The translations under genes were made by a program, and so were the position numbers. The notes beneath the pieces were generated by a model. That model saw nothing but the letters and a program-made list of their open reading frames with translations, was not told the origin of the DNA and made no database searches. Shown in pieces: positions 37,834 to 52,088 of a stretch of DNA of 58,463 nt (position 1 is its first letter; every line of letters starts with the position of its first letter). This DNA comes from Paracoccaceae bacterium (lineage in GTDB: Bacteria > Pseudomonadota > Alphaproteobacteria > Rhodobacterales > Rhodobacteraceae): assembly GCA_029247845.1 (NCBI GenBank), contig JAQWKM010000192.1, positions 1 through 58,463 on the forward strand, in the 5' to 3' direction.

Positions 37834-38008
37834 TTTTTATCCTAATTTTCCAAACACCCTTCTACTGACATAAAGCCCAGAGGGCGTCGACGCAACAGGT
37901 TGACCCTTATAAGAGAATAGTCGCTCAAATTAGTGTGCGAGTTTACACTCGGTGGACCTTGATAGAAATTTAAAAATCTGCATTCTTGACATTTATGGAA
38001 CAAAGCTC

Positions 38009-39667
38009 GTGAAACAGAATAAGAACTGGCCCGCAGGGGTCCCAAAAAATATCGTTTTCCCAAAGCAAACGCTGCCAGAAAACCTTTTGGCGTCGGCGCA
38101 GCGCGTCCCATTAAGAAAGGCATTGATTTTTTATGGTGCTGAATACACCTATCAAGAGGTTCTGCAACTGGTCGAAAGACTAAGTGGCTACCTACAGAGT
38201 GTTATACAGATAAAGCCGGATGAACCCGTCTTGCTTTATATGCAAAACAGCCCTCAGTTTATTATTTCATTTTATGCAATTTTGCATGCCGGCGGCGTGG
38301 TCATTCCAGTCAACCCAATGTCCAGAAAAGCCGAACTCAACTACATCCAAAAAGACACAGATTCCCGCCTAGTCATCGCAGGCAGTGAAGTATCAGAATT
38401 TGTCCAGCCGCTGCTTATGACGGGGGCTATAGAACAGCTTATAAGTACAAACTATGCCGATATGACCGATCCAGAATATGACCTTTGTTTGCCAGCGTCT
38501 TTGTACCCCCACGATCCTGACTTGATGCGCAAACTCGGTTATGTGATGTGGCAGGACGCAATAAGCTCTGCTTATCCAGTACCCCCGGTCAACCGATCCG
38601 CTTCTGACCTTGCCGTTATACCCTATAGTTCTGGAACAACGGGAAATCCAAAAGGCTGCATGCATAGCCATTATACCGTGAATGTTACAGCAGTAGGAGG
38701 CGTTGTCTGGCATCAATTTGAAGAGGACAGCATATCGCTTGCAACGCTGCCAATGTTTCATGTGACCGGAATGCAGGGGGCCATGAACGGGCCTATTTAT
38801 GCAGCGGGCACTCTGGTGATCATGGCCCGCTGGGACCGCCAGATTGCCGCTGAACTTATTCGGCGTTACCAAATCACACGTTGGCGATCTATTGCTACGA
38901 TGGCAATTGATTTTGTAAATGATCCCAATATCAGATCCTATGATCTCTCATCTCTCAAAGCAGTTGGCGGCGGCGGAACTGCGATGCCCGCCCCGATTGC
39001 AAGAAAGCTTAAAGACCTGACTGGGCTTGATTATTTAGAAGGGTATGGCCTGAGCGAAACTATGGCGGCAACGCACTTGAACCCCACAGATGCGCCACGT
39101 GCGCAATGTCTTGGCATAGCAGTGTTTGATGTAAAATCTTGCATCTGGTCACCACAAAATCACAAAAAGCTTGGCCCAAACGAAATTGGGGAAATTCTGA
39201 TTGCCGGACCGCAGGTATTCTTGGGCTATTGGCGTCGACCAGAGGACACCAAAGAGGCTTTCGTCACTTTGGACGGCGTTGCCTATTTTCGCACTGGTGA
39301 TATCGGGTATGTAGATGAAGACGGATTTTTCTATATGGTCGACCGTCTTAAGCGCATGATCAATGCCTCGGGCTTTAAAGTCTGGCCAGCCGAAGTAGAA
39401 GCTATTATGTATGGTCATCCCGCAATTGCGGAAGCTTGCGTCATAGCCAGTAAAGATCCAAGACGCGGCGAAACCGTAAAAGCCATAGTTGTAAAAACTC
39501 GAAATGAAAAAGCGCCGAGCCCAAGAGAGATAATATCATGGTGCAAAACAATGATGGCAGCCTATAAGTGCCCAACCGAAATCGAATTTGTTGAAGTGCT
39601 ACCCAAATCAGGCTCCGGAAAAGTGATGTGGAGAGCTTTAACCGATAAAGAAAACACGCATTGCTAA
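38009..39667 (+). CDS. AMP-dependent acyl-CoA ligase
   Basis: Activates a carboxylic acid to its CoA thioester through an acyl-adenylate. About 552 residues with the P-loop-like motif PYSSGTTGNPKGCMH, the gate segment YGLSETMAATHLNP, the YFRTGDIGYVDEDGFFYMVD hinge region and the C-terminal catalytic lysine in SGSGKVMWRAL. It resembles medium- or long-chain fatty acid ligases. Start choice is uncertain: the frame is open from a GTG at 37952, but the GTG at 38009 gives an N-terminus (VKQNKNWPAGVPKNIVFP) like that of relatives. It is the first of eight same-strand genes ending at 45268 that look like one catabolic unit, although a 139-base gap follows it. Confidence 0.87.
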   Translation: MKQNKNWPAGVPKNIVFPKQTLPENLLASAQRVPLRKALIFYGAEYTYQEVLQLVERLSGYLQSVIQIKPDEPVLLYMQNSPQFIISFYAILHAGGVVIPVNPMSRKAELNYIQKDTDSRLVIAGSEVSEFVQPLLMTGAIEQLISTNYADMTDPEYDLCLPASLYPHDPDLMRKLGYVMWQDAISSAYPVPPVNRSASDLAVIPYSSGTTGNPKGCMHSHYTVNVTAVGGVVWHQFEEDSISLATLPMFHVTGMQGAMNGPIYAAGTLVIMARWDRQIAAELIRRYQITRWRSIATMAIDFVNDPNIRSYDLSSLKAVGGGGTAMPAPIARKLKDLTGLDYLEGYGLSETMAATHLNPTDAPRAQCLGIAVFDVKSCIWSPQNHKKLGPNEIGEILIAGPQVFLGYWRRPEDTKEAFVTLDGVAYFRTGDIGYVDEDGFFYMVDRLKRMINASGFKVWPAEVEAIMYGHPAIAEACVIASKDPRRGETVKAIVVKTRNEKAPSPREIISWCKTMMAAYKCPTEIEFVEVLPKSGSGKVMWRALTDKENTHC

Positions 39668-39806
39668 ATCCAATAAATTTGACCACGGTTTTGGGGCATC
39701 AACCGATATTTTTGCCCCTTTGCAATAGAACGTTGCGGCATTTTGTCAGAGAACTGTTGCACTTGGGATGAAAGGCCATTCTGCTAGTAGGAAATGGAAA
39801 AGATTA

Positions 39807-40622
39807 ATGACACCTGAAAATCTGTTTGACCTTAAAGGAAAAGTTGCCCTCGTAACTGGTGGAGCAACAGGCATCGGACGAATGGCATCGATCGGGCTTG
39901 CCTCAGCTGGAGCGCGCGTTCTTATTGCCAGCCGCAAAGCCGAGGCCTGCCAAGCTGTTGCCGCAGATATCAACGAAATGGGGCTGGCCGGATCCGCCGA
40001 AGGATTCGGTGGCAATATTGCCACTCAGGACGGAATCAGCGATTTAATCACCGCTTTAAAATTGCGAACAGACAAGCTTCATATTCTGATGAACAATGCA
40101 GGGCGAACCTGGGGGGCTCCTTTGGGAGTATTTCCCTACGATGCATGGGACAGAGTAATGGCTTTAAATGTGACGGGAATGTTTCACCTGACACAAGGCC
40201 TAATTGAATTTCTGGCTGCTTCGACAGACGCAAACGATCCAGCCAGAGTGGTGAACGTTGGCAGCGTCATGGGGGAAATCCCCATGGGCGACGACGCCTA
40301 TTCCTATGCTGTCTCAAAATCTGCAGTGCACCACATGACCCGAATATTGGCCAAAGAACTGCTTGAGCGCAATATCACTGTGAATGCATTGGCGCCGGGA
40401 CCTTTTCAATCTGGAATGACCAAATTTGCGATTGGTGATGACGATAGCTCTGACCGGGTTGGCCTGCGCGTTCCTGCCAGGCGCGTTGGACGATCTGAAG
40501 ATATTGCAGCCTGCATGCAATTTCTGTGTGGATATGGCGGGTCTTACATCACAGGCGCTATTCTTCCCGTCTCAGGGGGTATAAATGTTTCTACGGGGCA
40601 TTCTATCTTTGGTGAGGATTAA
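39807..40622 (+). CDS. SDR-family oxidoreductase in acyl-CoA cluster
   Basis: Short-chain dehydrogenase of 271 residues. The dinucleotide-binding motif is VTGGATGIGRMASIGLA near residues 14-30, NNAGRTWGAP follows, and the catalytic YxxxK is in DAYSYAVSKSAVHHM. The C-terminal GYGGSYITGAILPVSGG is usual for gluconate 5-dehydrogenase/3-oxoacyl reductase-like SDRs. The start is the ATG at 39807; the frame extends to 39768, but with an unlikely basic leader. Three bases separate it from the MaoC gene, so the two probably act in sequence: hydration or dehydration, and oxidation or reduction of a 3-hydroxyacyl-type intermediate. LvaD of the levulinate pathway is an SDR in a comparable place. Confidence 0.85.
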   Translation: MTPENLFDLKGKVALVTGGATGIGRMASIGLASAGARVLIASRKAEACQAVAADINEMGLAGSAEGFGGNIATQDGISDLITALKLRTDKLHILMNNAGRTWGAPLGVFPYDAWDRVMALNVTGMFHLTQGLIEFLAASTDANDPARVVNVGSVMGEIPMGDDAYSYAVSKSAVHHMTRILAKELLERNITVNALAPGPFQSGMTKFAIGDDDSSDRVGLRVPARRVGRSEDIAACMQFLCGYGGSYITGAILPVSGGINVSTGHSIFGED

Positions 40623-40625
40623 TCC

Positions 40626-41081
40626 ATGTCATTGATGTCCCTTGAAGATTTCAAAGGCCATGTTGGACAAAAGATTGGAACATCGCGTTGGTTTTTTTTA
40701 AACCAGTCCAGAATTGATCTTTTCGCAGATGTGACAGAAGATCGCCAATTCATTCATGTCGACGCTGACTTGGCGTCTGAAACTCCTTTTGGCACGACTA
40801 TCGCGCATGGTTTTCTGACACTTTCAATGCTTTCTGCCATGAGCTATGACAGTATCCCACGCATTAAAGGCGTTACAATGGGCGTAAATTACGGTTTCAA
40901 TCGAATACGCTTTGTCACCCCGGTGACTTCAGCTTCCCGGGTGCGCGCACATTTCACACTTGCCTCTTCCGACACTGAAAAACCTTCAGAAATAACCAAT
41001 GTTTTTGATGTGAGCGTGGAGATACAAGGGAATGATCGTCCTGCTCTCGTGGCTGAATGGATCAGCCGACAGTACTTTTAA
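40626..41081 (+). CDS. MaoC-family enoyl-CoA hydratase/dehydratase
   Basis: Hot-dog-fold hydratase of 151 residues, in the NodN/R-specific enoyl-CoA hydratase group. The catalytic segment is FADVTEDRQFIHVDADLA, with Asp and His as in MaoC enzymes, followed by TPFGTTIAHGFLTLSML. It would add water to a 2-enoyl-CoA (or reverse this), giving a hydroxyacyl-CoA for the SDR just upstream. GAGGA lies before the ATG. Chain length and stereochemistry are not visible from sequence. Confidence 0.88.
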   Translation: MSLMSLEDFKGHVGQKIGTSRWFFLNQSRIDLFADVTEDRQFIHVDADLASETPFGTTIAHGFLTLSMLSAMSYDSIPRIKGVTMGVNYGFNRIRFVTPVTSASRVRAHFTLASSDTEKPSEITNVFDVSVEIQGNDRPALVAEWISRQYF

Positions 41082-41097
41082 ATAAATAGGAAAAAAT

Positions 41098-42081
41098 ATG
41101 CCAGGGTTACCCTTAATCTTTTCTAAGCTACGTCTTCCCGTTGTGGCCGCACCTTTATTCATTATATCCAACCCAGACCTCGTGATTGCCCAATGCAAAT
41201 CTGGCGTAGTAGGATCATTTCCAGCCCTGAATGCACGCGAAAAAGAAGGTGATCCAATCATGTTGGATCTCTGGCTAAAAAGAATAACGGAAGAACTGGA
41301 TCGGTATAATCAGGTCAATCCAGATAATCCAGCAGCACCCTATGCCGTCAATCAAATTGTCCACAAATCAAATGAACGGCTTGAACGGGATCTTGAGATT
41401 TGCGCAAAGTGGAAAGTACCGATCTGGATTACATCTCTTGGAGCCCGTGTCGAAGTCAACGATGCCGCGCATAGTTGCGGGGGCATTGCACTGCACGACA
41501 TTATCAACAACAGATTTGCCAAAAAAGCGATCACAAAAGGCGCCGACGGATTGATTGCCGTGGCAGCGGGTGCCGGCGGGCATGCCGGCCAACTTTCTCC
41601 AATGGCATTGATCAGTGAAATTCGGGAATGGTTTGAAGGCCCACTTTTATTGTCTGGATCAATTGCAACTGGCCGAAGTATTCTCGCAGCTCAAGCAATG
41701 GGCGCAGATCTTGCCTATATCGGCTCACCTTTTATTGCCACGCATGAAGCAAATGCAGAAGATGCCTACAAACAGATGATCGCTGATTCATCGGCGGCCG
41801 ATATTATTTATTCGTCGTTGTTTACTGGTGTTCACGGCAACTACCTTAAACCCTCGATCACCAGAGCAGGTATGGATCCGAATAATCTTCCCGCCTCAGA
41901 TCCCTCTGCAATGAATTTTTCAGACAAAAGTGAAAAACCAAAGTCTTGGAAAGAGATTTGGGGTTCTGGTCAAGGAATTGGTGCAATCAAAGAAGTCATG
42001 CCAACCAGTGGGCTCGTAGATCAGTTCCAAGCTGAATACACACAGGCAGGCAAAGCGCTTCAAGGCGATATATATGGCTGA
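41098..42081 (+). CDS. Nitronate monooxygenase-family flavoprotein
   Basis: FMN-binding TIM-barrel enzyme of 327 residues of the 2-nitropropane dioxygenase/NMO family. Family motifs are PVVAAPLFIISNPDLVIAQC at the N-terminus, GAGGHAGQLSPMALISEI for the phosphate-binding loop, and SGSIATGRSILAAQAMGADL. True members oxidise alkyl nitronates such as propionate 3-nitronate, but many homologues have other roles, including enoyl reductase-like chemistry (FabK). It is the fourth gene of the acyl-CoA cluster and overlaps the next gene by eight bases. Its presence beside a ligase and hydratase suggests detoxification of an intermediate or a flavin-dependent reduction; this is inference. Confidence 0.83.
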   Translation: MPGLPLIFSKLRLPVVAAPLFIISNPDLVIAQCKSGVVGSFPALNAREKEGDPIMLDLWLKRITEELDRYNQVNPDNPAAPYAVNQIVHKSNERLERDLEICAKWKVPIWITSLGARVEVNDAAHSCGGIALHDIINNRFAKKAITKGADGLIAVAAGAGGHAGQLSPMALISEIREWFEGPLLLSGSIATGRSILAAQAMGADLAYIGSPFIATHEANAEDAYKQMIADSSAADIIYSSLFTGVHGNYLKPSITRAGMDPNNLPASDPSAMNFSDKSEKPKSWKEIWGSGQGIGAIKEVMPTSGLVDQFQAEYTQAGKALQGDIYG

Positions 42082-42739
42082 ACTCTACCTTATCAGGCAT
42101 GCTCAGGCGAGTTTTGGTGCAGATGATTACGATAAGCTCTCCGAACTGGGTCACGAGCAAAGCCATGCTCTAGGCCAAGCTCTTACCGCGCAAGGCGTGC
42201 GGCCTGATGCTTGGGTCATGGGGGATATGCGGCGGCATCGCGAAACGATCGAAGGTATTGCGAAAGGCATGGGGCTCAATACCGTAAACGCAGAAATTCA
42301 CACTGGCCTTAACGAATTTGATTTAACTGGACTTTTAAACGCACACTATCGCGGACACCTAGCGCCAGAGAATATGCACACGGACCGAAAAACATACTTT
42401 CGCGCGTTGCGCGAAACTGTGCTGGCCTGGCAAGAAAATGACATTCAAAAACCACCAGAAACCTGGGTCGAATTTGGACAACGTGTTGAAGCCGACCGAA
42501 AATTTGTTATGCGCGATGGGGTAAATTCTGTACTGGCGCTAAGTTCAGGAGGTGCAATTTCACAAATGATATCAGCGGCCTTGCAGACCCCTAAGGAACA
42601 ACAAATCCGTCTTCAACTACAAATGAAAAACTGCTCAGTAAACAGATTTATATTTACGCCTAAAGGATTTTACTTGCATGGATTTAATGAGACCCCACAT
42701 ATTAGGCAAGAAACCAACCATTTTTTGACATATAGTTAG
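42074..42739 (+). CDS. Histidine phosphatase-family protein
   Basis: Member of the phosphoglycerate mutase-like superfamily, 221 residues. The catalytic RHG-type motif is LIRHAQASFG (Arg8-His9), and the second histidine lies in the LSSGGAISQMIS region, where the usual GHG is not clearly kept. It overlaps the NMO gene by eight bases and precedes the kinase-like gene by 14, so it is co-transcribed. Such phosphatases frequently neighbour ACAD10-type phosphotransferases; a role in removing phosphate from a phosphorylated acyl intermediate is possible but unproven. Confidence 0.8.
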   Translation: MAELYLIRHAQASFGADDYDKLSELGHEQSHALGQALTAQGVRPDAWVMGDMRRHRETIEGIAKGMGLNTVNAEIHTGLNEFDLTGLLNAHYRGHLAPENMHTDRKTYFRALRETVLAWQENDIQKPPETWVEFGQRVEADRKFVMRDGVNSVLALSSGGAISQMISAALQTPKEQQIRLQLQMKNCSVNRFIFTPKGFYLHGFNETPHIRQETNHFLTYS

Positions 42740-42753
42740 CTTTAGGAAGCATC

Positions 42754-43782
42754 ATGTCTGATACATCTTATTTGGATACGGCGGCAGTCAATAAATGGCT
42801 ATCGGCCAATCTCAGTGGGTTTTCTGGTCCTGTTGAAGCACATAAATTTGCAGATGGTCAATCAAACCCGACCTTTGCTTTAAAAACTGCGCGCAGAAAT
42901 TATGTACTGCGCAGAAAACCTCCCGGCATCCTGCTGAAATCGGCGCATGCCGTAGACAGAGAGTTTCGCGTCCAGAAAGCCTTGGCAGACACGGATGTTC
43001 CAGTGGCCAAGATGCACGTGCTTTGCGAAGATGACACAGTAATAGGCTCGGCTTTCTATGTGATGCAAATGATAGATGGTAGGAACTATGACAATCCAAG
43101 CCTTCCAGAACTGCCTTTCGACGATAGAAAGCCAGTCCTGTATGAAATGAACCGTGTTTTAGCTGCAATTCACAGTGTTGATCTTGTCAAAGTCGGGCTA
43201 TCCGATTTTGGTCCTGACGGGAATTATTACCGCCGCCAGACAGACCGCTGGACAAAGCAATATCGGGCGACAGAGACCGAAACCATACCACAGATGGATG
43301 AATTGATGGTCTGGCTGGATGATCATATGCCTTTAGATGACGGTCAACGCGCATTAGTACATGGAGATTATCGCATTGATAACATGCTATTTTCCAAGAC
43401 AGACCCAGAATGCCTGGCCGTTCTGGACTGGGAATTATCGACCATCGGTCATCCTTATGCAGATCTGGCAGCAGTTATAATGCAGTGGTCGATGCAGGCG
43501 AGCAAAGAGGGCCGTGGACTTGCCGGAATTGACAGGAATTTACAGGGATTGATGGAAGATCCCGAATTTATCGATCTTTACTGTGACCACCGTGGAATTT
43601 CTGAGATAGAAAACTTTGGATTTTATCTGGCCTTTTGTTTTTTCCGGATGGGTGGTATTTTGCAGGGTGTGAAAAAACGGGCATTAGATGGCAATGCGTC
43701 AAACCCACAACGCGCCCTGCGCGTGGGAAGCTATGTCAACGATTGTGCAAATGCCGGCCTTAAAGCGACGAAAACGTTATGA
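42754..43782 (+). CDS. APH-fold phosphotransferase, ACAD10/LvaA-like
   Basis: Kinase-like protein of 342 residues with the aminoglycoside phosphotransferase fold. The catalytic loop is VHGDYRIDNMLF and the metal-binding DFG-equivalent is VLDWELSTIGHPYADLA; the N-terminal ATP-binding lobe contains NYVLRRKPPG with the expected lysine. This subgroup corresponds to the N-terminal kinase domain of ACAD10/11 and to LvaA, which phosphorylate 4-hydroxyacyl-CoA so that the hydroxyl can be eliminated. The setting (ligase, SDR, hydratase, thioesterase) fits such a role. It overlaps the thioesterase gene by four bases (ATGA). The hydroxyacyl specificity is inference from the family. Confidence 0.84.
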   Translation: MSDTSYLDTAAVNKWLSANLSGFSGPVEAHKFADGQSNPTFALKTARRNYVLRRKPPGILLKSAHAVDREFRVQKALADTDVPVAKMHVLCEDDTVIGSAFYVMQMIDGRNYDNPSLPELPFDDRKPVLYEMNRVLAAIHSVDLVKVGLSDFGPDGNYYRRQTDRWTKQYRATETETIPQMDELMVWLDDHMPLDDGQRALVHGDYRIDNMLFSKTDPECLAVLDWELSTIGHPYADLAAVIMQWSMQASKEGRGLAGIDRNLQGLMEDPEFIDLYCDHRGISEIENFGFYLAFCFFRMGGILQGVKKRALDGNASNPQRALRVGSYVNDCANAGLKATKTL

Positions 43783-44225
43783 CTTTATCTGATGAAAAAA
43801 ACCTCTCACTTCATAGCGAAGCACCTTATCCACTTCAAAATCACCTTGGATTTGAACTGACAGAATGGCACAAAGACTATTGCCGTGTAGAATTGCCGTT
43901 AAAGCCTTTTTTGTTAAATAGATATGGAATTCCGCATGGCGGGATCCACGCAACTCTGCTCGATACAGCTATGGGGTACTGCGCCTGCTATTCAGAAGAT
44001 CCCAACAAACCAATTTTTGCAATGACGCTCAGCCTTACGGTAAACTACTTGGGTCAAAGCACAGGCAACGCTCTTATCGCTGAGGCCAACCGAACGGGTG
44101 GAGGCCACAAAACATTTTTTGCCAAAGGAAGGGTAACAGATGATACTGGACAGCCAATAGCAACAGCAACAGGTGTATTCCGGTTTCGTTCGGACGCTAA
44201 TCAAAACTCTAAAAAGAAAGAATAG
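43779..44225 (+). CDS. PaaI-type hot-dog thioesterase
   Basis: Acyl-CoA thioesterase of 148 residues. The signature GIPHGGIHATLLDTAMGYCA holds the HGG motif and the catalytic aspartate of the PaaI/YdiI group. It would release free acid from stalled CoA thioesters and so recycle CoA. Its ATG overlaps the kinase stop by four bases, and the following reductase gene starts two bases after its stop. The charged tail (DANQNSKKKE) is not conserved in the family. Confidence 0.85.
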   Translation: MTLSDEKNLSLHSEAPYPLQNHLGFELTEWHKDYCRVELPLKPFLLNRYGIPHGGIHATLLDTAMGYCACYSEDPNKPIFAMTLSLTVNYLGQSTGNALIAEANRTGGGHKTFFAKGRVTDDTGQPIATATGVFRFRSDANQNSKKKE

Positions 44226-44227
44226 AT

Positions 44228-45268
44228 ATGTCGGAGACCATGCAAAGGGTTGCCCTAGCAGAGCGCCCGATCGGCGCACCAGGTGACCATAATTTTCGTT
44301 TGGAAACGATTGAAATCCCAGCTTTGTGTGACGATGATGTTCTCGTTGAAATTGAATACATGTCGCTCGATCCTTATATGCGCGGCCGCATGGATGATGC
44401 AAAGTCCTATGCATCCCCAGTTCCGATTGGAGGAACGATGGAAGGTGGTGCTGTAGGTCGGGTCATCGCTTCAAATTCATCCAAATTTGCTATTGGTGAT
44501 TTCGCATTTGGCCAGCTTGGCTGGGCAAGCCACGGATGCGTTCCGGCACGTGAATTACGCAAGCTCGATCCCGATTTAATGCCCATCACAACGGCACTTG
44601 GCGTTCTTGGTATGCCAGGATTTACAGGGTGGTACGGGTTAAAAGAACATGGCCGGCCAAAGAACGGTGAAACGCTTGTCGTTGCAGCCGCCACTGGTCC
44701 AGTGGGTTCAATGGTGGGTCAAATTGCCAAAACACATGGGCTGCATGTCGTGGGGATTGCAGGTGGGATTAAAAAATGCGCTCTTGCAGTCGAAAAGTTT
44801 GGCTTTGATCATTGCCTGGATCATAAGGCCTATGAAGATAGCCGTTCGATGAAAACAGCCCTGCAAGAGCTTTGTCCAAATGGCATCGATATCTATTTTG
44901 AAAATGTGGCTGGCAAAACTCTTGATGCGATTTTGCCATTAATGAATACCGGTGCACGGATTCCTATCTGCGGTATGATAAGCTGGTATAATGCGGGCGC
45001 ATTAGGGGCCAACGCAGGGGGCGAGACTGACAAACTCCCAAAAATGTGGCGCAGTATTCTGGTCAAGAAAATGTCAGTCAATGGCTTTATTATCTCAGAT
45101 CACTGGGATCGGTACAGCGACTTTTTGAGCGACGTGGCTCCAATGCTTTCAGCGGGCCAGATTGCTTACAAAGAAGATATTGTTGTCGGTCTGAAAAATG
45201 CTCCAAAAGCCTTTATGGGCCTACTGGAAGGTCATAATTTTGGCAAACTTATCGTAAAGATAAAATAA
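44228..45268 (+). CDS. NADP-dependent MDR-family alkenal/one oxidoreductase
   Basis: Zinc-free medium-chain dehydrogenase/reductase of 346 residues, similar to curcumin reductase, prostaglandin reductase and plant 2-alkenal reductase, which saturate the C=C of alpha,beta-unsaturated carbonyls with NADPH. Visible features are YMSLDPYMRGRMDDAKSYA at the N-terminus, the glycine-rich VAAATGPVGSMVGQIAK, and FENVAGKTLDAILPLMNTGA. It is the last gene of the acyl-CoA cluster, two bases after the thioesterase stop, and convergent with the iol aldolase gene 14 bases away. In this setting it could reduce enoyl or enal intermediates. Confidence 0.87.
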   Translation: MSETMQRVALAERPIGAPGDHNFRLETIEIPALCDDDVLVEIEYMSLDPYMRGRMDDAKSYASPVPIGGTMEGGAVGRVIASNSSKFAIGDFAFGQLGWASHGCVPARELRKLDPDLMPITTALGVLGMPGFTGWYGLKEHGRPKNGETLVVAAATGPVGSMVGQIAKTHGLHVVGIAGGIKKCALAVEKFGFDHCLDHKAYEDSRSMKTALQELCPNGIDIYFENVAGKTLDAILPLMNTGARIPICGMISWYNAGALGANAGGETDKLPKMWRSILVKKMSVNGFIISDHWDRYSDFLSDVAPMLSAGQIAYKEDIVVGLKNAPKAFMGLLEGHNFGKLIVKIK

Positions 45269-45282
45269 CTTAGGCTCTTCAA

Positions 45283-46113
45283 TTAGGCAAGTTTGAAAGA
45301 TTTCAAAACCTGCCGCGTGGCAGCAACGAGTGGCCCGTGCGTGTCTTTCAGGATCGCGACTCGGTCAAAGCGATTGGGATCTGACAAGACCGAGCTTCTA
45401 AGAGCCGCACCAAATGCTAGACGCAATTCGGTGCCGATATTAAACTTGCAGATGCCTGATGTCTGGGCCAGACGTCGACGCTGCTCTATCGGCACGCCTG
45501 ATCCACCATGTATCACCAAAGGCACATCGCAAGCCGCATCTATTGCGCGAATGCGTTCTTCGTCCAATACACCAGATTGGTAAGTCTGCAAGTGTACATT
45601 GCCAACAGAAATTGCCATAGCATTAACATGGCTATCCACAGCAAATTTTGCAGCTTCTGAAGGGTCCGTGCCAGACGAATTTTCACCACCTGAATAGCCA
45701 ACAAAGCCAATCTCGCCCTCGCAAGATATACCCGCTTGATGCGCAAGCTCTGCCACCTGCGCAGTCTCATCTATATTTTGCTGGAGGGGCTTTCTTGATC
45801 CGTCAAACATCACCGAAGTAAACCCGCTATCTAGCGCCTCTTGGCATTCATCAAATGTGTATCCGTGATCGAGATGAGCAACGACAGGGACTGATGCACT
45901 TTCGGCCAAATGGCGGAACATTTTGCCTAAAATAGGCAAAGGCGTATGGGCTCGGCAACTTGGACCCGCCTGCAATATAACTGGCACTTGCTCCAGCTCT
46001 GCCGCCTCAACATAGGCGCGCATGTCTTCCCATCCAAGGGTCACTAGACCAGCCACAGCGTAGCTACCGCTCAAAGCGGGTTCCAAAACGTCCTTTAGCG
46101 TCACAAGTGTCAT
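45283..46113 (-). CDS. iolJ: Class II aldolase of the inositol pathway (IolJ/fructose-bisphosphate aldolase-like)
   Basis: Zinc-dependent class II aldolase of 276 residues. In this position it most likely cleaves 2-deoxy-5-keto-D-gluconate 6-phosphate to dihydroxyacetone phosphate and malonate semialdehyde. Zinc ligands are visible in PVVAHLDHGYTFDECQEALD and in VIHGGSGVP; the acidic residue lies in CEGEIGFVGYSGGENS. It is the last gene of iolD-iolC-iolB-aldolase and overlaps the iolB stop by four bases. The motifs alone would also fit a general fructose- or tagatose-bisphosphate aldolase; the pathway assignment rests on context. Confidence 0.82.
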   Translation of the reverse strand: MTLVTLKDVLEPALSGSYAVAGLVTLGWEDMRAYVEAAELEQVPVILQAGPSCRAHTPLPILGKMFRHLAESASVPVVAHLDHGYTFDECQEALDSGFTSVMFDGSRKPLQQNIDETAQVAELAHQAGISCEGEIGFVGYSGGENSSGTDPSEAAKFAVDSHVNAMAISVGNVHLQTYQSGVLDEERIRAIDAACDVPLVIHGGSGVPIEQRRRLAQTSGICKFNIGTELRLAFGAALRSSVLSDPNRFDRVAILKDTHGPLVAATRQVLKSFKLA

Positions 46114-46952
46114 TTAAACTTAGCAACCATGTCTTTAATGCCGGGAATAGTCTCAATTTGATAGGCATGTGTGGGCTGAAAATACTGCACCAGCGGCCGC
46201 TGCGTTAGACCACCAAGAATGGTGAAGTAGTACATTTCGTACCCGGGCAAAGCTGCACAAGGGTGATAACCATCGTCGATACAAATCGTCGAGCCATCGA
46301 CAATATGGTATGCGTCACCCGGTTCGTTATCAATCCTTTGAAGCATCTGAAGGCCTGATCCGTGGTTGGGTTTGAACCGAAAGTTATACGTTTCATCGTG
46401 GCGAGTTTCGGTCGGAAGCCTATTAGTATCATGCTTATGAGACGGGAAGCCGGACCAACCACCTTGGCCGACAGTAAACAGTTCACTTACCAATAACCTG
46501 CCAACCTTGTCGTGCTGCTTTTGGCCCAGGATATGTTTAATCTTACGATGTGTCTTTGTTTCATCACTGCCATATTGTACGAGGTCTATACCGTCTTTGC
46601 GGATATCAAAGGGATCAAGGACCTTATCATATTTTGCTCCAGCAATTAATATTTCAGTAGCATCAGATAAACAAGTCATAGTAACCTTAGCTCCAGAGGG
46701 GATATATACCCCTTCGGGTTCTCCGTCCCACACGTCTTCTCCGCGATTGCCCAGCGCTGCAAAGTGAACACCTTCAACATCAATATCCAAACTTCCTGTC
46801 GCAGGAACGATACATGTTTCATAACCAGGCACTTGATAATCAAAGGACTGCCCGTTGGTCAGCTTGACAATATTGAAATAATTGAGCGGGACCGTTGGAT
46901 TTTCAACATCCACAATTGGCAAGTTATTATTATCAAATGGTGCAATATGCAT
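46110..46952 (-). CDS. iolB: 5-deoxy-glucuronate isomerase
   Basis: Cupin-fold isomerase of 280 residues converting 5-deoxy-D-glucuronate to 2-deoxy-5-keto-D-gluconate in myo-inositol breakdown. The metal-binding region SHKHDTNRLPTETRHDETYN, and GYHPCAALPGYEMYYFTIL near the C-terminus, are characteristic of IolB. It lies 14 bases after iolC and overlaps the aldolase gene by four bases. Length matches the family. Confidence 0.92.
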   Translation of the reverse strand: MHIAPFDNNNLPIVDVENPTVPLNYFNIVKLTNGQSFDYQVPGYETCIVPATGSLDIDVEGVHFAALGNRGEDVWDGEPEGVYIPSGAKVTMTCLSDATEILIAGAKYDKVLDPFDIRKDGIDLVQYGSDETKTHRKIKHILGQKQHDKVGRLLVSELFTVGQGGWSGFPSHKHDTNRLPTETRHDETYNFRFKPNHGSGLQMLQRIDNEPGDAYHIVDGSTICIDDGYHPCAALPGYEMYYFTILGGLTQRPLVQYFQPTHAYQIETIPGIKDMVAKFK

Positions 46953-46966
46953 ATTGGTTTCCTATC

Positions 46967-47947
46967 TCATAATTCCGTTGGGCCAGCATGGCCACGCAAA
47001 AACTCATCCAGTTCAAGGGTGGTGGGCATCGCCGGGGCACAGCCAACACGTGCCACAACCATAGAGGCACAAGCAGAGCCGCGCAAAACGGCCTCTTTCA
47101 GCGGGCACCCGTCTGCCAGACCAGCAACAAAGCCACCCATAAAACTATCGCCAGCGCCGGTAGGCTTTAGCGCTTTCACAGGATAAATTCCTGTGCGAAT
47201 TTCACTATTAGCTGTGAGAGTGATCGCTCCGAGTTCACCCATTTTATACACAACAATTTTTGCCGTGGTGTTCGCAAGATCTCTGGCCTTTTTCAGACCT
47301 TGACCATAATCCCCCGCCATAAAGCCAAACTCGACATCATTGCCTACAATTATGTCACAATATTCCGCAGCGCGAGAGTAAGTCTTAGACGCAACCGTGG
47401 CACTCGGCCAGCTATATGGACGGTAGTCCACATCAAAAATCAAAGGCAAGCCTGCTGTTTTTGCCAAATCAAATGCCTGAAAGGCAGCACTCCTGGAAGG
47501 CTCAGCTGCAAAAACTGTTCCGGTGGTAATCAAAGCGCTATACCTTGCATACTCTAAGACCTGAACATCATCTAATGTCATTTCAAAATCAGCCGCTCCA
47601 TTGCGATAAATTACAGATTGATGATCTTCGACACGGCTTTCCACGATTGCCAGCGAATTGCGCGCCTCGCCGCCCACAATACGCACATGCTTTCGATCAA
47701 CCTCGTAATGATCAAGCTGGTTCAGGCAGTAACGACCGATTGCATCATCAGAGACACAAGTGACCAGAGATGCGCGCGCGCCATGTTTATTCAGGGCAAC
47801 GCAAATATTGGCGGATGATCCACCAAGGGCAGCAAAAAAGTGGGTCGCTTCTTCCGTCTTAGTCCCGGGGGGATCTGGATAAAAATCCATACCTGCCCGG
47901 CCAATAATCAAAAAATCTTTACCTGAGAGACGATCTAATGATGCCAT
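46967..47947 (-). CDS. iolC: 5-dehydro-2-deoxygluconokinase
   Basis: PfkB-family sugar kinase of 326 residues, which phosphorylates 2-deoxy-5-keto-D-gluconate for the aldolase. It has the N-terminal substrate region IGRAGMDFYPD and GGSSANICVALNKHGARASL, and the C-terminal ATP/anion-hole motif KPTGAGDSFMGGFVAGLADG with the catalytic aspartate. Many IolC proteins carry an extra C-terminal DUF2090 domain; this one is the kinase only. Its ATG shares a base with the iolD stop (TAATG). Confidence 0.92.
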   Translation of the reverse strand: MASLDRLSGKDFLIIGRAGMDFYPDPPGTKTEEATHFFAALGGSSANICVALNKHGARASLVTCVSDDAIGRYCLNQLDHYEVDRKHVRIVGGEARNSLAIVESRVEDHQSVIYRNGAADFEMTLDDVQVLEYARYSALITTGTVFAAEPSRSAAFQAFDLAKTAGLPLIFDVDYRPYSWPSATVASKTYSRAAEYCDIIVGNDVEFGFMAGDYGQGLKKARDLANTTAKIVVYKMGELGAITLTANSEIRTGIYPVKALKPTGAGDSFMGGFVAGLADGCPLKEAVLRGSACASMVVARVGCAPAMPTTLELDEFLRGHAGPTEL

Positions 47948-49815
47948 TAGACACCCTTTCTTTGTCTGCTACGCCCTGCTTCTTGGTCGGCATGAGCGGC
48001 ATTTATATTTTCGCTGTCACTCACCTCAGGCGTCCCGACTTCCCACCAAGTATGGCCCTCATCCGTCCATCCGTCATATGGATCAACTTGCATACAAATA
48101 ACACTGGTCTTGTCACTCTGTTTCGCGCGCTTGAAGGCCTCAGCAAATTCCAAAGGGTTTTGTACTGTTTCCGCATTAGCCCCCATCGATGCCGCATGGC
48201 TCTGAAAATCAACTGCAAAAGGATCATGAACCGTTGGACAATCTGCTATCAAATTGTTAAAGCTTTCGTTTCCAGTGTTATTTTGCAATTTATTGATCAC
48301 GGCAAAGCCCCCGTTATCAAGCACAACAATGATAAGTTTTTTACGGCTTAGGACGGAGGAGTAAATATCTGAGTTCAAAAGCAAATACGAGCCATCTCCA
48401 ACCAATACAATCGTATCACTGTCTGGTTCGCGCTCGGACTGTGCGATACGCGCGCCCCAACCGCCTGCTATTTCATACCCCATACAGGAAAATCCGAATT
48501 CCACATCAACTGTGCCGATTCCCAATGTTCGCCAATTTGCAGTGACTTCTGCGGGCAAACCACCAGCGGCCGTAACAATACGATCCCGCGGATCGCAGAG
48601 TTCGTTCACAACGCCAATGACCTGAGCATAAGAATTGGGGCCATTGTCCAACGAAACATTAAAAGCTACATAATCATCCCAAATTTGTCGCTCTTTTTTG
48701 GCTTTTTTGGTCCAGTCTGGCGTAGTATGGAAACCATCCAGCGCTTCGTGAAGGCTGTTAATTGCAACCTTTGCGTCGGCTACCATTGGCAGCGACAAAT
48801 GCTTGTGCGCATCAAAGCGCGCCGCATTGATCGACACAAACTTTGCGTCCTGCGCGAATGCCGTCCACGAACCTGTGGTGAAATCCTGTAGGCGCGTACC
48901 AATTGCCAAAATGACATCAGCCTTTTCAGCGATATTATTTGCGCTGCTTGATCCAGTGACGCCTATTGGCCCAATGTTAAGCGGATGCGTGGCCAGCATA
49001 TTAGCTCTTCCAGCAATAGTTTCCACTACTGGAATTCCGTAAGTCTCTGCAAATTCTCTAAGCTCTTGGACCGCACCGCTATATTGGACACCCCCACCAG
49101 CAATAATCATGGGACGCTTGGCCGTTTTCAAAACCTCTACGGCGGCTTTGATGTCTTCGCTATCGGGCGCACTACGCCGAATGCGATGCACTTTTTTCTC
49201 AAAAAGCTGTTCTGGATAGTCATAGCTCCAACCCTGTACATCCTGTGGAAGCCCAATAAAGGCCGGGCCACAATCTGCAGGGTCGAGCATTGTCGAGATT
49301 GCTTGTGGCAAAGATTGAATAACTTGCGCAGGATGGGTAATTCGATCCCAAAACCGAGTGACCGTTTTAAACGCATCATTGAGACCCAAACTGGGGTTAT
49401 TAAAATGTTCAACCTGTTGCAAAACAGGATCAGGTAAGCGCGTGATATAAGTATCTCCGCACAAGAGCAAAAGCGGCAAGCGATTGGCATGTGCCAAAGC
49501 TGCAGAGGTCAGTAAATTTGATGTTCCGGGCCCAGCACTAGCCGTACAGAACATAAAACGCCGGCGCAACCATTGTTTAGCATACGCAGCAGCCGCAAAG
49601 CCCATGCTCTGTTCATTCTGTCCACGATACAGCGGCAACTCGTCTTTCAAATTATAAAGAGCTTCTCCAAGGCACGTCACATTTCCATGACCAAAAATCC
49701 CAAATCCACCGCCACAGAGCCGCAATTCCTGTCCATCAATTTCGATAAATTGATTTCCTAGATATTTCATAGTGGCCTGGGCGGTTGTAAGACGGACTGA
49801 TCTTTCGCTCTGCAT
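47947..49815 (-). CDS. iolD: 3D-(3,5/4)-trihydroxycyclohexane-1,2-dione hydrolase
   Basis: Thiamine diphosphate-dependent enzyme of 622 residues that opens the inositol-derived ring, giving 5-deoxy-glucuronate. Structure follows the acetolactate synthase family: an N-terminal Pyr domain with the glutamate region around YRGQNEQSMGFAAAAYA, a central domain, and a C-terminal PP domain with GDGSYLLLNSDIYSSVL and VLDNGGFAVIN, the ThDP/Mg motif. The ATG at 49815 (MQSERSVRLTTAQATMKYLG) with AGGA upstream is chosen; the frame is open to 50037, but that stretch covers the operator and divergent iolE start. First gene of the minus-strand iol operon. Confidence 0.95.
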   Translation of the reverse strand: MQSERSVRLTTAQATMKYLGNQFIEIDGQELRLCGGGFGIFGHGNVTCLGEALYNLKDELPLYRGQNEQSMGFAAAAYAKQWLRRRFMFCTASAGPGTSNLLTSAALAHANRLPLLLLCGDTYITRLPDPVLQQVEHFNNPSLGLNDAFKTVTRFWDRITHPAQVIQSLPQAISTMLDPADCGPAFIGLPQDVQGWSYDYPEQLFEKKVHRIRRSAPDSEDIKAAVEVLKTAKRPMIIAGGGVQYSGAVQELREFAETYGIPVVETIAGRANMLATHPLNIGPIGVTGSSSANNIAEKADVILAIGTRLQDFTTGSWTAFAQDAKFVSINAARFDAHKHLSLPMVADAKVAINSLHEALDGFHTTPDWTKKAKKERQIWDDYVAFNVSLDNGPNSYAQVIGVVNELCDPRDRIVTAAGGLPAEVTANWRTLGIGTVDVEFGFSCMGYEIAGGWGARIAQSEREPDSDTIVLVGDGSYLLLNSDIYSSVLSRKKLIIVVLDNGGFAVINKLQNNTGNESFNNLIADCPTVHDPFAVDFQSHAASMGANAETVQNPLEFAEAFKRAKQSDKTSVICMQVDPYDGWTDEGHTWWEVGTPEVSDSENINAAHADQEAGRSRQRKGV

Positions 49816-49882
49816 TGGGACATCCTTTTCTGGAGGGTCAGCTTTTGAAGCTTGCGCTCTTACGATTCTAAAGATACTACTT

Positions 49883-49898
49883 TTGCAACCGGTTGCAA
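49883..49898. promoter_or_regulatory. Palindromic LacI-family operator in the iolD/iolE divergent spacer
   Basis: TTGCAACCGGTTGCAA is a perfect 16-base palindrome with the central CG typical of LacI/GalR-family operators. It sits 68 bases before the iolD start and 128 before the iolE start, and the same core recurs at 53163-53180. It is most likely bound by the LacI-type protein encoded at 52091-53092 to repress both divergent iol units. Sequence is direct; the regulator pairing is inference. Confidence 0.85.
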
Positions 49899-50025
49899 CT
49901 GAATTTGAAACACCTGTAAGGACGGCCCATGCGCTTATCTGTTTGCGCTCTTTTAAACCAGGATTGCGATTTACATTCCATAATTCTGTTTGCTGGTATC
50001 TTCGCTTAGAAAGGGAGTTTTCTTC

Positions 50026-50925
50026 ATGACTATTCAAATTGGTAATGCCCCTTGTTCTTGGGGTGTTGAGTTTGCTCGGGACGAGCGAAATCCAACTTGG
50101 CAGACCGTATTGTCAGAATGCGCGAAAGCAGGCTATCGCGGCATCGAGCTTGGTCCAATCGGATTTATGCCAGAAGACCCCCAAATCCTAGGCCCAGCTC
50201 TAGAAGAACATGATCTGACCTTAGTCGGTGGCGTTGTTTTTCGACCATTTCATATTCCAAATAAATGGGATGAAGTCCAGGATGCTATTCAACGCACTTG
50301 CGAGGATTTAACGGCACACGGTGCAAAACATCTAGTTCTTATCGATTCTATTTCCCCCCGCCGCGCTCCAACAGCAGGACGCGCCTCAGAGGCGGAACAC
50401 ATGGATGCCTCCGAATGGGCAGATTTTCGGGATCGTCTAAAGACTGCGGCACAGATTGGCACCGAAGAGTATGGTCTGACGGTTGGTATGCATGCGCATG
50501 CAGCAGGCTTTATTGATTTCGAGCCTGAGCTAGAACGCCTGCTAGAGGAGATTGACTCAAACATTTTGAAGATCTGCTTTGATACTGGGCATCATTCTTA
50601 TGCTGGCTATGATCCTGTTAACTTCATGAAACGACATATCAACCGCATTTCATATATGCACTTTAAAGACATTAATCCTGCTGTGAAAGCCGATGTTATC
50701 AAAAAACGTACTGGGTTTTATGACGCTTGCGGTGAAGGTATCTTTTGTAATCTGGGTCAAGGCGATGTTGACTTTGCGGTTGTAAGACAAATTTTGTTGG
50801 ATGCTGATTTTGAAGGCTGGTGCACGGTTGAGCAGGATTGCGATCCGACAATGAACATAAGCCCACTTGATGACGCAAAAGAGAATAGATCCTATCTGCA
50901 ATCAATTGGGTTTTCCGAGGAGTAA
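50026..50925 (+). CDS. iolE: Inosose dehydratase (IolE)
   Basis: TIM-barrel enzyme of 299 residues of the xylose isomerase-like family that dehydrates 2-keto-myo-inositol. The family start IQIGNAPCSWGVEFARDERN is unmistakable, with GYRGIELGPIGFMPEDP, then CFDTGHHSYAGYDPVNFMKR and ISYMHFKDINP for metal binding, and WCTVEQDCDP near the end. The ATG at 50026 follows AAGGGAG. It starts the plus-strand iol unit, divergent from iolD across the operator, and is followed after five bases by the dehydrogenase gene. Confidence 0.95.
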   Translation: MTIQIGNAPCSWGVEFARDERNPTWQTVLSECAKAGYRGIELGPIGFMPEDPQILGPALEEHDLTLVGGVVFRPFHIPNKWDEVQDAIQRTCEDLTAHGAKHLVLIDSISPRRAPTAGRASEAEHMDASEWADFRDRLKTAAQIGTEEYGLTVGMHAHAAGFIDFEPELERLLEEIDSNILKICFDTGHHSYAGYDPVNFMKRHINRISYMHFKDINPAVKADVIKKRTGFYDACGEGIFCNLGQGDVDFAVVRQILLDADFEGWCTVEQDCDPTMNISPLDDAKENRSYLQSIGFSEE

Positions 50926-50930
50926 AGACG

Positions 50931-52088
50931 ATGGCAAAGTTAAAATGGGGCCTAATCGGAGGTGGTGAAGGCAGTCAAATAGGTCCAGCACATAGATTGG
51001 GTTCAGGGCTCGACGCTTTGTTTGAATTTACGGCTGGGGCTTTGGATCATCGACCAGAGGAAGGGCGCGACTACGCTCAGAGACTGGGTCTACAAAAAGA
51101 TCGTGCTTACGGTGACTGGAAAGAAATGCTGGATGGTGAAAAGAGCCACAAAGACCGCGTTGATCTGGTCACAGTCGCCACGCCAAACTCAACCCATTTT
51201 GAAATTACAAAATCCTTTTTAGAAGCTGGATTTCACGTTCTATGCGAAAAGCCCATGACAATGACCGTACAAGAAGCTGAAGACATCGTACGCATAAGCG
51301 AAAAGAGCGGGCAAATTTGTGCGGTAAATTATGGCTATTCTGGCTATTCATTAGTGCGCCACATGAGGGCAATGGTTGCTCGCGGAGAACTGGGGGATAT
51401 TCGTTTGGTGAAAGCAGAATTTGCCCATGGCCATCATGCAGATGCGACTGACGCAGATAATCCTCGCGTGCGATGGCGCTATGATCCTGCGCAAATTGGC
51501 GTTTCTGCCCAATTCGCAGACTGTGGAATTCACGCAATGCATATGGCATCTTTTGTGACTGGGCAAGAAGTGACCACCCTGTCAGCAGATACAGTTTCTT
51601 GTATTCCTGGACGCACCCTTGAAGACGATGCAATGGTAAACTTTCGCATGGATAAGGGAACCGTTGGACGGCTCTGGACGTCTTCAATCGCACTTGGACG
51701 CCAACATGGACTAACCCTTCAGGTCTTTGGAGAAAAAGGTGGCCTAAGCTGGGCACAAGAACAGCCCAACCAGCTCTACTGGATGCCACTCAACGGTCGG
51801 CTTGAAACAATCGAGCGCGGCGAGGCAAGTCTATCTCCAGAAGCAGATCGTAGCACGCGGGTCACAATAGGACACGCCGAAGGAATGCCTCTGGCATTTG
51901 CCAACATCTACAGAGATCTTGCCGAAGCTATTTTTGCACAAAAAGAGGGCTGCCCCATGGATCCGGCTGCAAATATCTTTCCGACAGCAAAAGATGGCCT
52001 TCGCTCAATGGCAGCGGTTTATGCTGTTGCTGACTCGGGCGCAAAAAATGGCGTTTGGGTAGATGCCCGACCACCGATGTTCCAATAA
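50931..52088 (+). CDS. Gfo/Idh/MocA-family dehydrogenase, probable inositol dehydrogenase
   Basis: NAD(P)-dependent sugar or polyol dehydrogenase of 385 residues. The Rossmann start is WGLIGGGEGSQIGPAHRLG, the catalytic lysine is in HVLCEKPMTMT, and DCGIHAMHMASFVTG holds the conserved His of the active site. By position it should perform the first oxidation, myo-inositol (or another isomer) to inosose. It is some 50 residues longer than the classic IolG (about 330-340), so it belongs to a different subgroup and may act on scyllo- or chiro-inositol or a derivative. It is co-transcribed with iolE and ends two bases from the convergent lacI-type gene. Confidence 0.87.
   Translation: MAKLKWGLIGGGEGSQIGPAHRLGSGLDALFEFTAGALDHRPEEGRDYAQRLGLQKDRAYGDWKEMLDGEKSHKDRVDLVTVATPNSTHFEITKSFLEAGFHVLCEKPMTMTVQEAEDIVRISEKSGQICAVNYGYSGYSLVRHMRAMVARGELGDIRLVKAEFAHGHHADATDADNPRVRWRYDPAQIGVSAQFADCGIHAMHMASFVTGQEVTTLSADTVSCIPGRTLEDDAMVNFRMDKGTVGRLWTSSIALGRQHGLTLQVFGEKGGLSWAQEQPNQLYWMPLNGRLETIERGEASLSPEADRSTRVTIGHAEGMPLAFANIYRDLAEAIFAQKEGCPMDPAANIFPTAKDGLRSMAAVYAVADSGAKNGVWVDARPPMFQ

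Follow-up and report, generated by a model that had tools for sequence, protein, structure and literature searches.

We analyzed an eight-gene cluster of acyl-coenzyme A (acyl-CoA) metabolism in a draft genome of a Paracoccaceae bacterium (assembly GCA_029247845.1; 2.6 Mb in 203 contigs, 75.7% complete). The window, meaning the whole stretch of DNA under analysis, is the 58,463 nucleotides of contig JAQWKM010000192.1 (contig C180 in our numbering), and the cluster spans positions 37952-45268 with all eight open reading frames (ORFs) on the forward (+) strand. It encodes a probable 4-hydroxyacyl-CoA kinase, whose expected partner, a predicted acyl-CoA dehydrogenase (ACAD), we located on a different contig, C35. 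A first-pass annotation had named a family for each of the eight genes, and assignments by Pfam and NCBIfam agree with all of these names.

The first gene (37952-39667) encodes an AMP-forming long-chain acyl-CoA ligase of the PRK08314 group (PF00501; NF006181 at 765.8 bits against a cut-off of 705); its annotated start is a GTG, and translation might instead begin further on, at the GTG at 38009. After 100 bases, the largest gap in the cluster, come seven closely packed genes, with -8 to +16 bases between neighbors: a short-chain dehydrogenase/reductase (SDR) oxidoreductase (39768-40622; PF00106/PF13561; alternative start ATG at 39807), a MaoC-type hydratase (40626-41081; PF01575), a nitronate monooxygenase (NMO)/FabK-type flavin mononucleotide flavoprotein (41098-42081; PF03060), a protein with the histidine phosphatase fold (42074-42739; PF00300), an APH-fold kinase (42754-43782; PF01636), a PaaI-type hotdog thioesterase (43779-44225; PF03061; TIGR00369 at 61.4 bits against a cut-off of 36.6), and a CurA/PTGR-type NADPH enone reductase (44228-45268; PF16884 and PF00107), which clears its family cut-off narrowly (NF058644, 445.8 bits against 440).

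The kinase and its expected dehydrogenase partner

The best matches of the kinase among PDB structures are 3dxp (E-value 7e-103) and then ACAD11 (8v3v, 2.1e-73, residues 9-340), with 99 of 231 residues identical to the ACAD11 kinase domain in the compared part. NCBIfam models for antibiotic phosphotransferases score at most 31 bits on it, against cut-offs of 205-390. In ACAD11, D220, N225, R176, and R86 are reported as the catalytic Asp and Asn and the CoA-contacting Arg residues (PMC12440821). The first three align with D205, N210, and R161 of our kinase; no Arg stands at the R86 position by simple PDB chain numbering, and the Arg beside the alphaC Glu (R69 here) is kept. The ACAD10/LvaA-like assignment of the first-pass annotation is thereby borne out: judged by its sequence, the protein is a kinase of the ACAD10/11 kinase-domain type with its catalytic residues kept. 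Homology and residues likewise favor the earlier reading of its substrate, and it is a probable 4-hydroxyacyl-CoA kinase. In our kinase tree ACAD11 forms a long branch of unsure placement and LvaA is not included, so the tree does not decide which of the two is nearer.

The annotation had also stressed the lack of an ACAD and suggested that elimination proceeds without an adjacent one. Locally the first point holds, as no ACAD was found within the cluster or the twelve flanking genes scanned. It fails genome-wide: a search for a dedicated ACAD elsewhere gave 14 matches to PF00441, one of which is the expected partner. The ACAD on C35 is the sole one of the 14 with equivalents of ACAD11 R626, H634, R637, and D753, and it alone bears RLGPGRIHHCMR, with Asp where a catalytic Glu is usual. 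Its version of the RxxxxRxxHxxR motif and catalytic Asp reads QGRLGPGRIHHCMR and ADGPD, a signature that has been tied to 4-phosphoacyl-CoA substrates (PMC12440821). The C35 ACAD is about 80% identical to ACADs that abut or lie near the kinase in relatives, and a kinase-adjacent relative of it matches PDB 4hr3 (5e-136) and ACAD11 (2e-125). Its gene and that of an acyl-CoA ligase from the PRK07008/PRK06018 group (under both cut-offs) make up a unit of two, and no second copy of this ligase was found in the genome at E-values up to 1e-60. On these grounds we assign the C35 ACAD to the dedicated ACAD11/LvaC type and regard it as the kinase's expected partner. The claim of elimination without a dehydrogenase is unsupported because this enzyme, with its diagnostic residues, is encoded on C35 and its type travels with the kinase.

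DmdC is a longer enzyme than the C35 ACAD; we considered this identity and ruled it out by size (411 aa) and by the ACAD11 signature residues. We also note ACADs of other kinds. A second subfamily (RLxxARLTHCMR, VDGADEV), which likewise has the Asp and the R/H/R residues, lies beside more distant kinases at L046, L047, L049, and L219. At L133 (1062-3317; genome G000, contig C183) an ACAD pair resembles the large and small subunits of pimeloyl-CoA dehydrogenase, both under their family cut-offs, and relatives of this pair are encoded close to the kinase cluster, but on the other strand, at L071, L086, L117, and L127. Heterodimer-type ACAD pairs near related kinases occur at L062, L076, L081, L098, L099, L108, L116, L118, and L123. 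A thiolase, an IclR regulator, and an ABC transporter of the branched-chain-amino-acid type accompany them at several of these loci, the regulator and transporter families being named from a greedy ORF clustering that mixed in spurious reverse-strand ORFs. The kinase at such loci possibly serves another substrate class.

Conservation in relatives and co-occurrence

The cluster is real and more than chance packing, because the same gene set and order recur in the nearest loci and the ligase lies directly beside rnd in all seven genomes of the genus, window included. All eight genes are complete and in order at two of the five nearest loci (L053 and L054) and in order at two more, where a contig end cuts the reductase (L052) or the ligase (L055); the fifth (L056) starts inside MaoC. 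At L052 (1453-2948; L271, on contig C119 of genome G005) the ligase is in three frames with a stretch missing, and the other seven genes look intact to the contig end. The ACAD is present in six of the seven genus genomes, the exception being G002 (62% complete), and a C35-type ligase adjoins it in five of the six; the sixth locus (L145) is cut there. The first-pass annotation had proposed comparing gene neighborhoods across relatives. The full set is conserved in the closest relatives and a partial set farther out, which supports that annotation on this point.

For the wider comparison we gathered loci by kinase similarity (the best 80 of 131, many cut by contig ends) and counted neighbors encoded on the same strand as the kinase, no more than 9 kb away and at least 40% identical, assigned by tblastn or profile. 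The 80 loci have the window-type ligase in 5 cases, the C35-type ligase in 40, SDR in 32, MaoC in 25, the flavoprotein in 44, an ACAD11-type ACAD in 25, the phosphatase in 49, the thioesterase in 44, and the reductase in 13. Restricting the comparison to the 58 loci whose sequence extends past 6 kb upstream and 3 kb downstream gives, in the same order, 3, 34, 23, 14, 31, 18, 38, 35, and 7. Where an ACAD11-type ACAD is present it abuts the kinase in 20 of 25 loci (gap of at most 71 bases) and is about 700-820 bases off in the other five. A further 45 loci have no ACAD at all and 10 have other ACADs only; a genome-wide search was possible for 44 of these 45, and in 37 it placed the ACAD beyond the locus (E-values up to 1e-110). 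In two of 20 far regions, from distant proteobacteria (L234 2383-8103 and L246 2538-8772), a ligase 51-53% identical to that of the window lies near a kinase, an SDR, and an ACAD11-type ACAD, which suggests that the ligase-kinase link is old.

Across 61 genomes, we found the kinase in 28, the ACAD in 25, and the flavoprotein in 20. Kinase and ACAD occur together in 22, with ACAD only in 3, kinase only in 6, and neither in 30 (Fisher p = 3.6e-8, uncorrected for kinship and with two E-value cut-offs). For kinase and flavoprotein the corresponding counts are 17 with both, 3 with flavoprotein only, 11 with kinase only, and 30 with neither (p = 2.4e-5, also uncorrected for kinship). G001 and G006, which account for two of the three genomes with "ACAD only", might be taken for genus members that lack the kinase; we rejected this and attribute the absence to assembly, as their contigs stop inside the cluster.

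The genes on either side are of ordinary kinds. One flank of the cluster holds rnd, a protein in the LptC position without a Pfam match, and LptA-type, ABC ATPase, hpf-type, and ptsN-type genes, the names being our reading of Pfam matches. Directly downstream (45283-52088) are inositol-catabolism-type genes for a class II aldolase, an IolB-type isomerase, a PfkB kinase, a thiamine pyrophosphate enzyme, a xylose-isomerase-like protein, and a Gfo/Idh/MocA protein. A scan of the sequence for promoters and terminators gave sites no more numerous than in shuffled sequences.

The histidine-phosphatase-like protein

Branch 1 of the histidine phosphatases is defined by two catalytic His residues. The cluster protein, although matched by PF00300, has one of them: the nucleophile His9 is kept, and the second catalytic His is replaced by Ser158, a position backed by alignment to PDB 9mmh and 6e4b. 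Ser stands there in all 56 distinct kinase-linked sequences (55 SSGG and 1 TSGG; 59 rows before repeats were removed). In the 61 genomes, all eight phosphatase matches above 300 bits sit directly beside the kinase, and 20 other kinase genomes have no match that strong. We considered whether the substitution is an adaptation specific to the kinase and ruled this out, as Ser also occurs in 28 of 28 rows of a wider alignment that contains paralogues from elsewhere together with some of the same kinase-linked proteins. The paralogues (L255-L269) have no kinase or ACAD in flanks of about 1.5 kb; an identical search detected kinases at 28 loci (L227-L254). Because paralogues away from the kinase carry it too, we read the Ser as the mark of a wider subfamily.

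The phosphatase-like protein bears on the possibility that elimination takes place inside the cluster without an ACAD, for example by this protein or by MaoC, and that the C35 ACAD serves something else. At 75 kinase loci, 42 have the phosphatase only, 19 an ACAD only, 5 both, and 9 neither, so that phosphatase-bearing loci mostly lack an ACAD; in Pseudomonas citronellolis, moreover, the authors suggested that a histidine phosphatase removes the phosphate (PMC6692424). In the kinase tree, however, the ACAD state changes just three times, and we dropped the anti-association as evidence. The ACAD was found elsewhere in most of the searchable ACAD-less cases, as given above, and among 20 far regions three proteobacterial ones (L227-L229) have phosphatase, ACAD, and kinase side by side in that order. 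We therefore consider elimination without an ACAD very unlikely.

A different role is suggested by analogy. The P. citronellolis phosphatase stands, in a cluster with an LvaA homologue, where P. putida has LvaB, and P. putida LvaB was pulled down with LvaA (PMC6692424); within ACAD10, the kinase is held in check by a degenerate HAD domain (PMC11342911). Because of these three parallels, we think that the protein may be a partner of the kinase.

The flavoprotein and the other extra proteins

The flavoprotein carries the Pfam label of an NMO, and the first-pass annotation had accordingly entertained nitro-acids such as 3-nitropropionate as substrates. Detoxification of such acids around an NMO, with the acyl-CoA genes as accessories, draws on that label. 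In profile matches to solved structures, however, the protein is closer to FabK enoyl reductases (2e-22) than to 2-nitropropane dioxygenases (1e-14), and the kinase and the ACAD account for the rest of the set without any nitro chemistry. This route, weak on the profile comparison, is to our mind extremely unlikely. The protein is 61-94% identical to 13 aligned relatives.

IpdF of steroid catabolism is an SDR, and together with a flavoprotein it offers another way to read two of the cluster's genes. The flavin-bound IpdC is 30% identical to FabK and works on a CoA ester with IpdF, itself related to a ring-ketone reductase (PMC5380842). The flavoprotein and SDR of the cluster could thus be an IpdC/IpdF-like pair acting on cyclic CoA esters, with the kinase phosphorylating a ring hydroxyl, and the related kinase loci with heterodimer-type ACAD pairs and a thiolase would be in keeping with steroid- or ring-like catabolism. 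Yet such pairs are absent from the loci of the window's own clade (L052-L056), no ring-cleavage genes were found among the cluster and flanking genes scanned, and the flavoprotein has no IpdC model match in NCBIfam, where the existence of such a model was not checked. The substrate in the IpdC/IpdF system is a ring, and the likeness of our flavoprotein to IpdC is one of FabK kinship. Ring catabolism is, in our estimate, quite improbable. We treat the FabK-like flavoprotein, the CurA-type reductase, MaoC, and the thioesterase as extras and infer their place in the pathway below.

Comparison with known systems

The levulinate (lva) cluster of P. citronellolis LA18T is described as containing a CoA ligase, an LvaA-type kinase, a histidine phosphatase, an LvaC-type ACAD, and an SDR, with the last four standing next to one another, together with an ActP transporter and an LvaR-type regulator (PMC6692424). 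Kinase, SDR, ligase, and histidine phosphatase of our cluster match it in kind, and an LvaC-type ACAD is present in the genome, as would be expected of an lva operon proper that converts levulinic acid through 4-hydroxyvaleryl-CoA and 4-phosphovaleryl-CoA to 3-hydroxyvaleryl-CoA. Three differences make this improbable: (i) the ligase clears a long-chain fatty-acid ligase cut-off, whereas LvaE acts on C4-C6 acids (PMC6692424); (ii) our cluster adds a flavoprotein, MaoC, a thioesterase, and an enone reductase, all absent from that paper's table for P. citronellolis; and (iii) no ActP-type transporter or LvaR-type regulator was found in our scan of the cluster and of twelve flanking genes, the rest of the window and genome not having been searched. 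The ACAD, moreover, lies on C35 and the kinase on C180, whereas in the lva operon the ACAD belongs to the kinase cluster. The lvaABCDE operon of P. putida KT2440, compared by description (PMC6692424, PMC11342911, PMC12440821), also has a ligase, an SDR, a kinase, and an LvaC-type enzyme; our cluster differs from it in having its ACAD outside and, judged by gap sizes and not by homology, no room for an LvaB-like gene between the packed genes.

Mammalian ACAD10 and ACAD11 share with our proteins the kinase catalytic residues and the RxxxxRxxHxxR/Asp signature of the ACAD, but there the two activities form one polypeptide, whereas here they are separate genes on separate contigs (PMC12440821, PMC11342911). 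The degenerate HAD domain of ACAD10 (PMC11342911) is matched here by a histidine-phosphatase-like kinase neighbor with an altered active site.

The first-pass annotation knew of no pathway with this exact set. The open-licence literature, among the matches listed, does not contradict it; what is already described is the combination of ligase, kinase, histidine phosphatase, LvaC, and SDR, in P. citronellolis. Among the matches listed for the gene set or for ACAD10/LvaC in bacteria, the two mammalian papers (PMC12440821, PMC11342911) were relevant, and the others, judged by title and the opening of the abstract, were unrelated; the same literature yielded nothing on oxylipins in Roseobacter, and listed matches on lactones, histidine phosphatases, and IpdC held nothing on the window's gene set.

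Discussion

Our analysis indicates that the cluster probably makes up the larger part of a bacterial module for 4-hydroxyacyl-CoA catabolism, whose elimination enzyme is encoded on C35. The set most likely permits the breakdown of 4-hydroxy fatty acids by an ACAD10/ACAD11-like route of phosphorylation followed by elimination. We infer each reaction and substrate of this route from the gene content and families, the signature residues of the kinase and the ACAD, the co-occurrence, and the conserved order. The long-chain ligase would form the CoA ester, and the SDR would interconvert the ketone and hydroxyl of 4-oxo- and 4-hydroxyacyl-CoA, as LvaD does. The kinase would then phosphorylate the 4-hydroxyl, the C35 enzyme would eliminate the phosphate to give a 2-enoyl-CoA, and MaoC would hydrate this product into beta-oxidation. 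Saturation of enoyl-CoA or enone forms of unsaturated oxidized acids is the probable upstream task of the FabK-like flavoprotein and the CurA-type reductase; the thioesterase would free stalled CoA esters, and the histidine-phosphatase-like protein would act as a kinase partner or clear stray phospho-esters. LvaA and LvaC orthologues of Burkholderia pseudomallei could substitute for ACAD10 domains in vitro (PMC11342911).

Several observations weigh against this 4-hydroxyacyl-CoA module. Just 5 of the 80 loci have the window-type ligase close to the kinase, and 13 have the reductase there; in G005, a member of the genus rated 96% complete, the ligase in three frames may be dispensable, or misassembled. 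The C35 ligase is similar to 3-(methylthio)propionyl-CoA ligase (740 bits, under the cut-off of 822) and might act in a different pathway. No ACAD was found at E-values up to 1e-110 in 7 of the 44 searchable ACAD-less genomes; five of these are labeled as metagenome-assembled genomes, one corresponds by coordinates to G002, and L083 (Shimia litoralis) is from an isolate draft. Two of the 37 outside-locus matches (L074 and L087) are just 51-52% identical, and loci cut by a contig end could have their ACAD adjacent, on another contig. The flavoprotein is lacking in 11 of the 28 kinase genomes and has matches in three of its 20 genomes without a kinase match (G006, G029, and G050), that in G006 being just 39% identical and containing a stop.

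Overall, we regard the cluster as a version of the known 4-hydroxyacyl-CoA pathway that is both split and elaborated; two or three of its proteins are accessories of putative role. We also put forward, tentatively and as unlikely, a joint reading of these accessories. The phosphatase-like protein would be a dedicated, catalytically degenerate partner of the kinase and not a phosphatase, a stand-in for LvaB and a counterpart of the ACAD10 HAD domain in role and not by descent; the flavoprotein, SDR, and enone reductase would form a front end for oxidized unsaturated fatty acids, such as the 4-hydroxy- and 4-oxo-2-enoic acids of algal lipid peroxidation.

Ordinary beta-oxidation is for the most part unable to process 4-hydroxy fatty acids, and genes that handle such acids were reported between 2017 and 2025. 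Our findings name three extra proteins, the flavoprotein, the enone reductase, and the degenerate phosphatase, as candidates for a role in their breakdown, and the last of these offers a parallel to ACAD10, where a degenerate phosphatase domain restrains the kinase in a way still unexplained. The conservation of an elaborated version in marine bacteria of the Roseobacter group suggests that 4-hydroxy and oxidized lipids are real substrates in the carbon cycling of the surface ocean.

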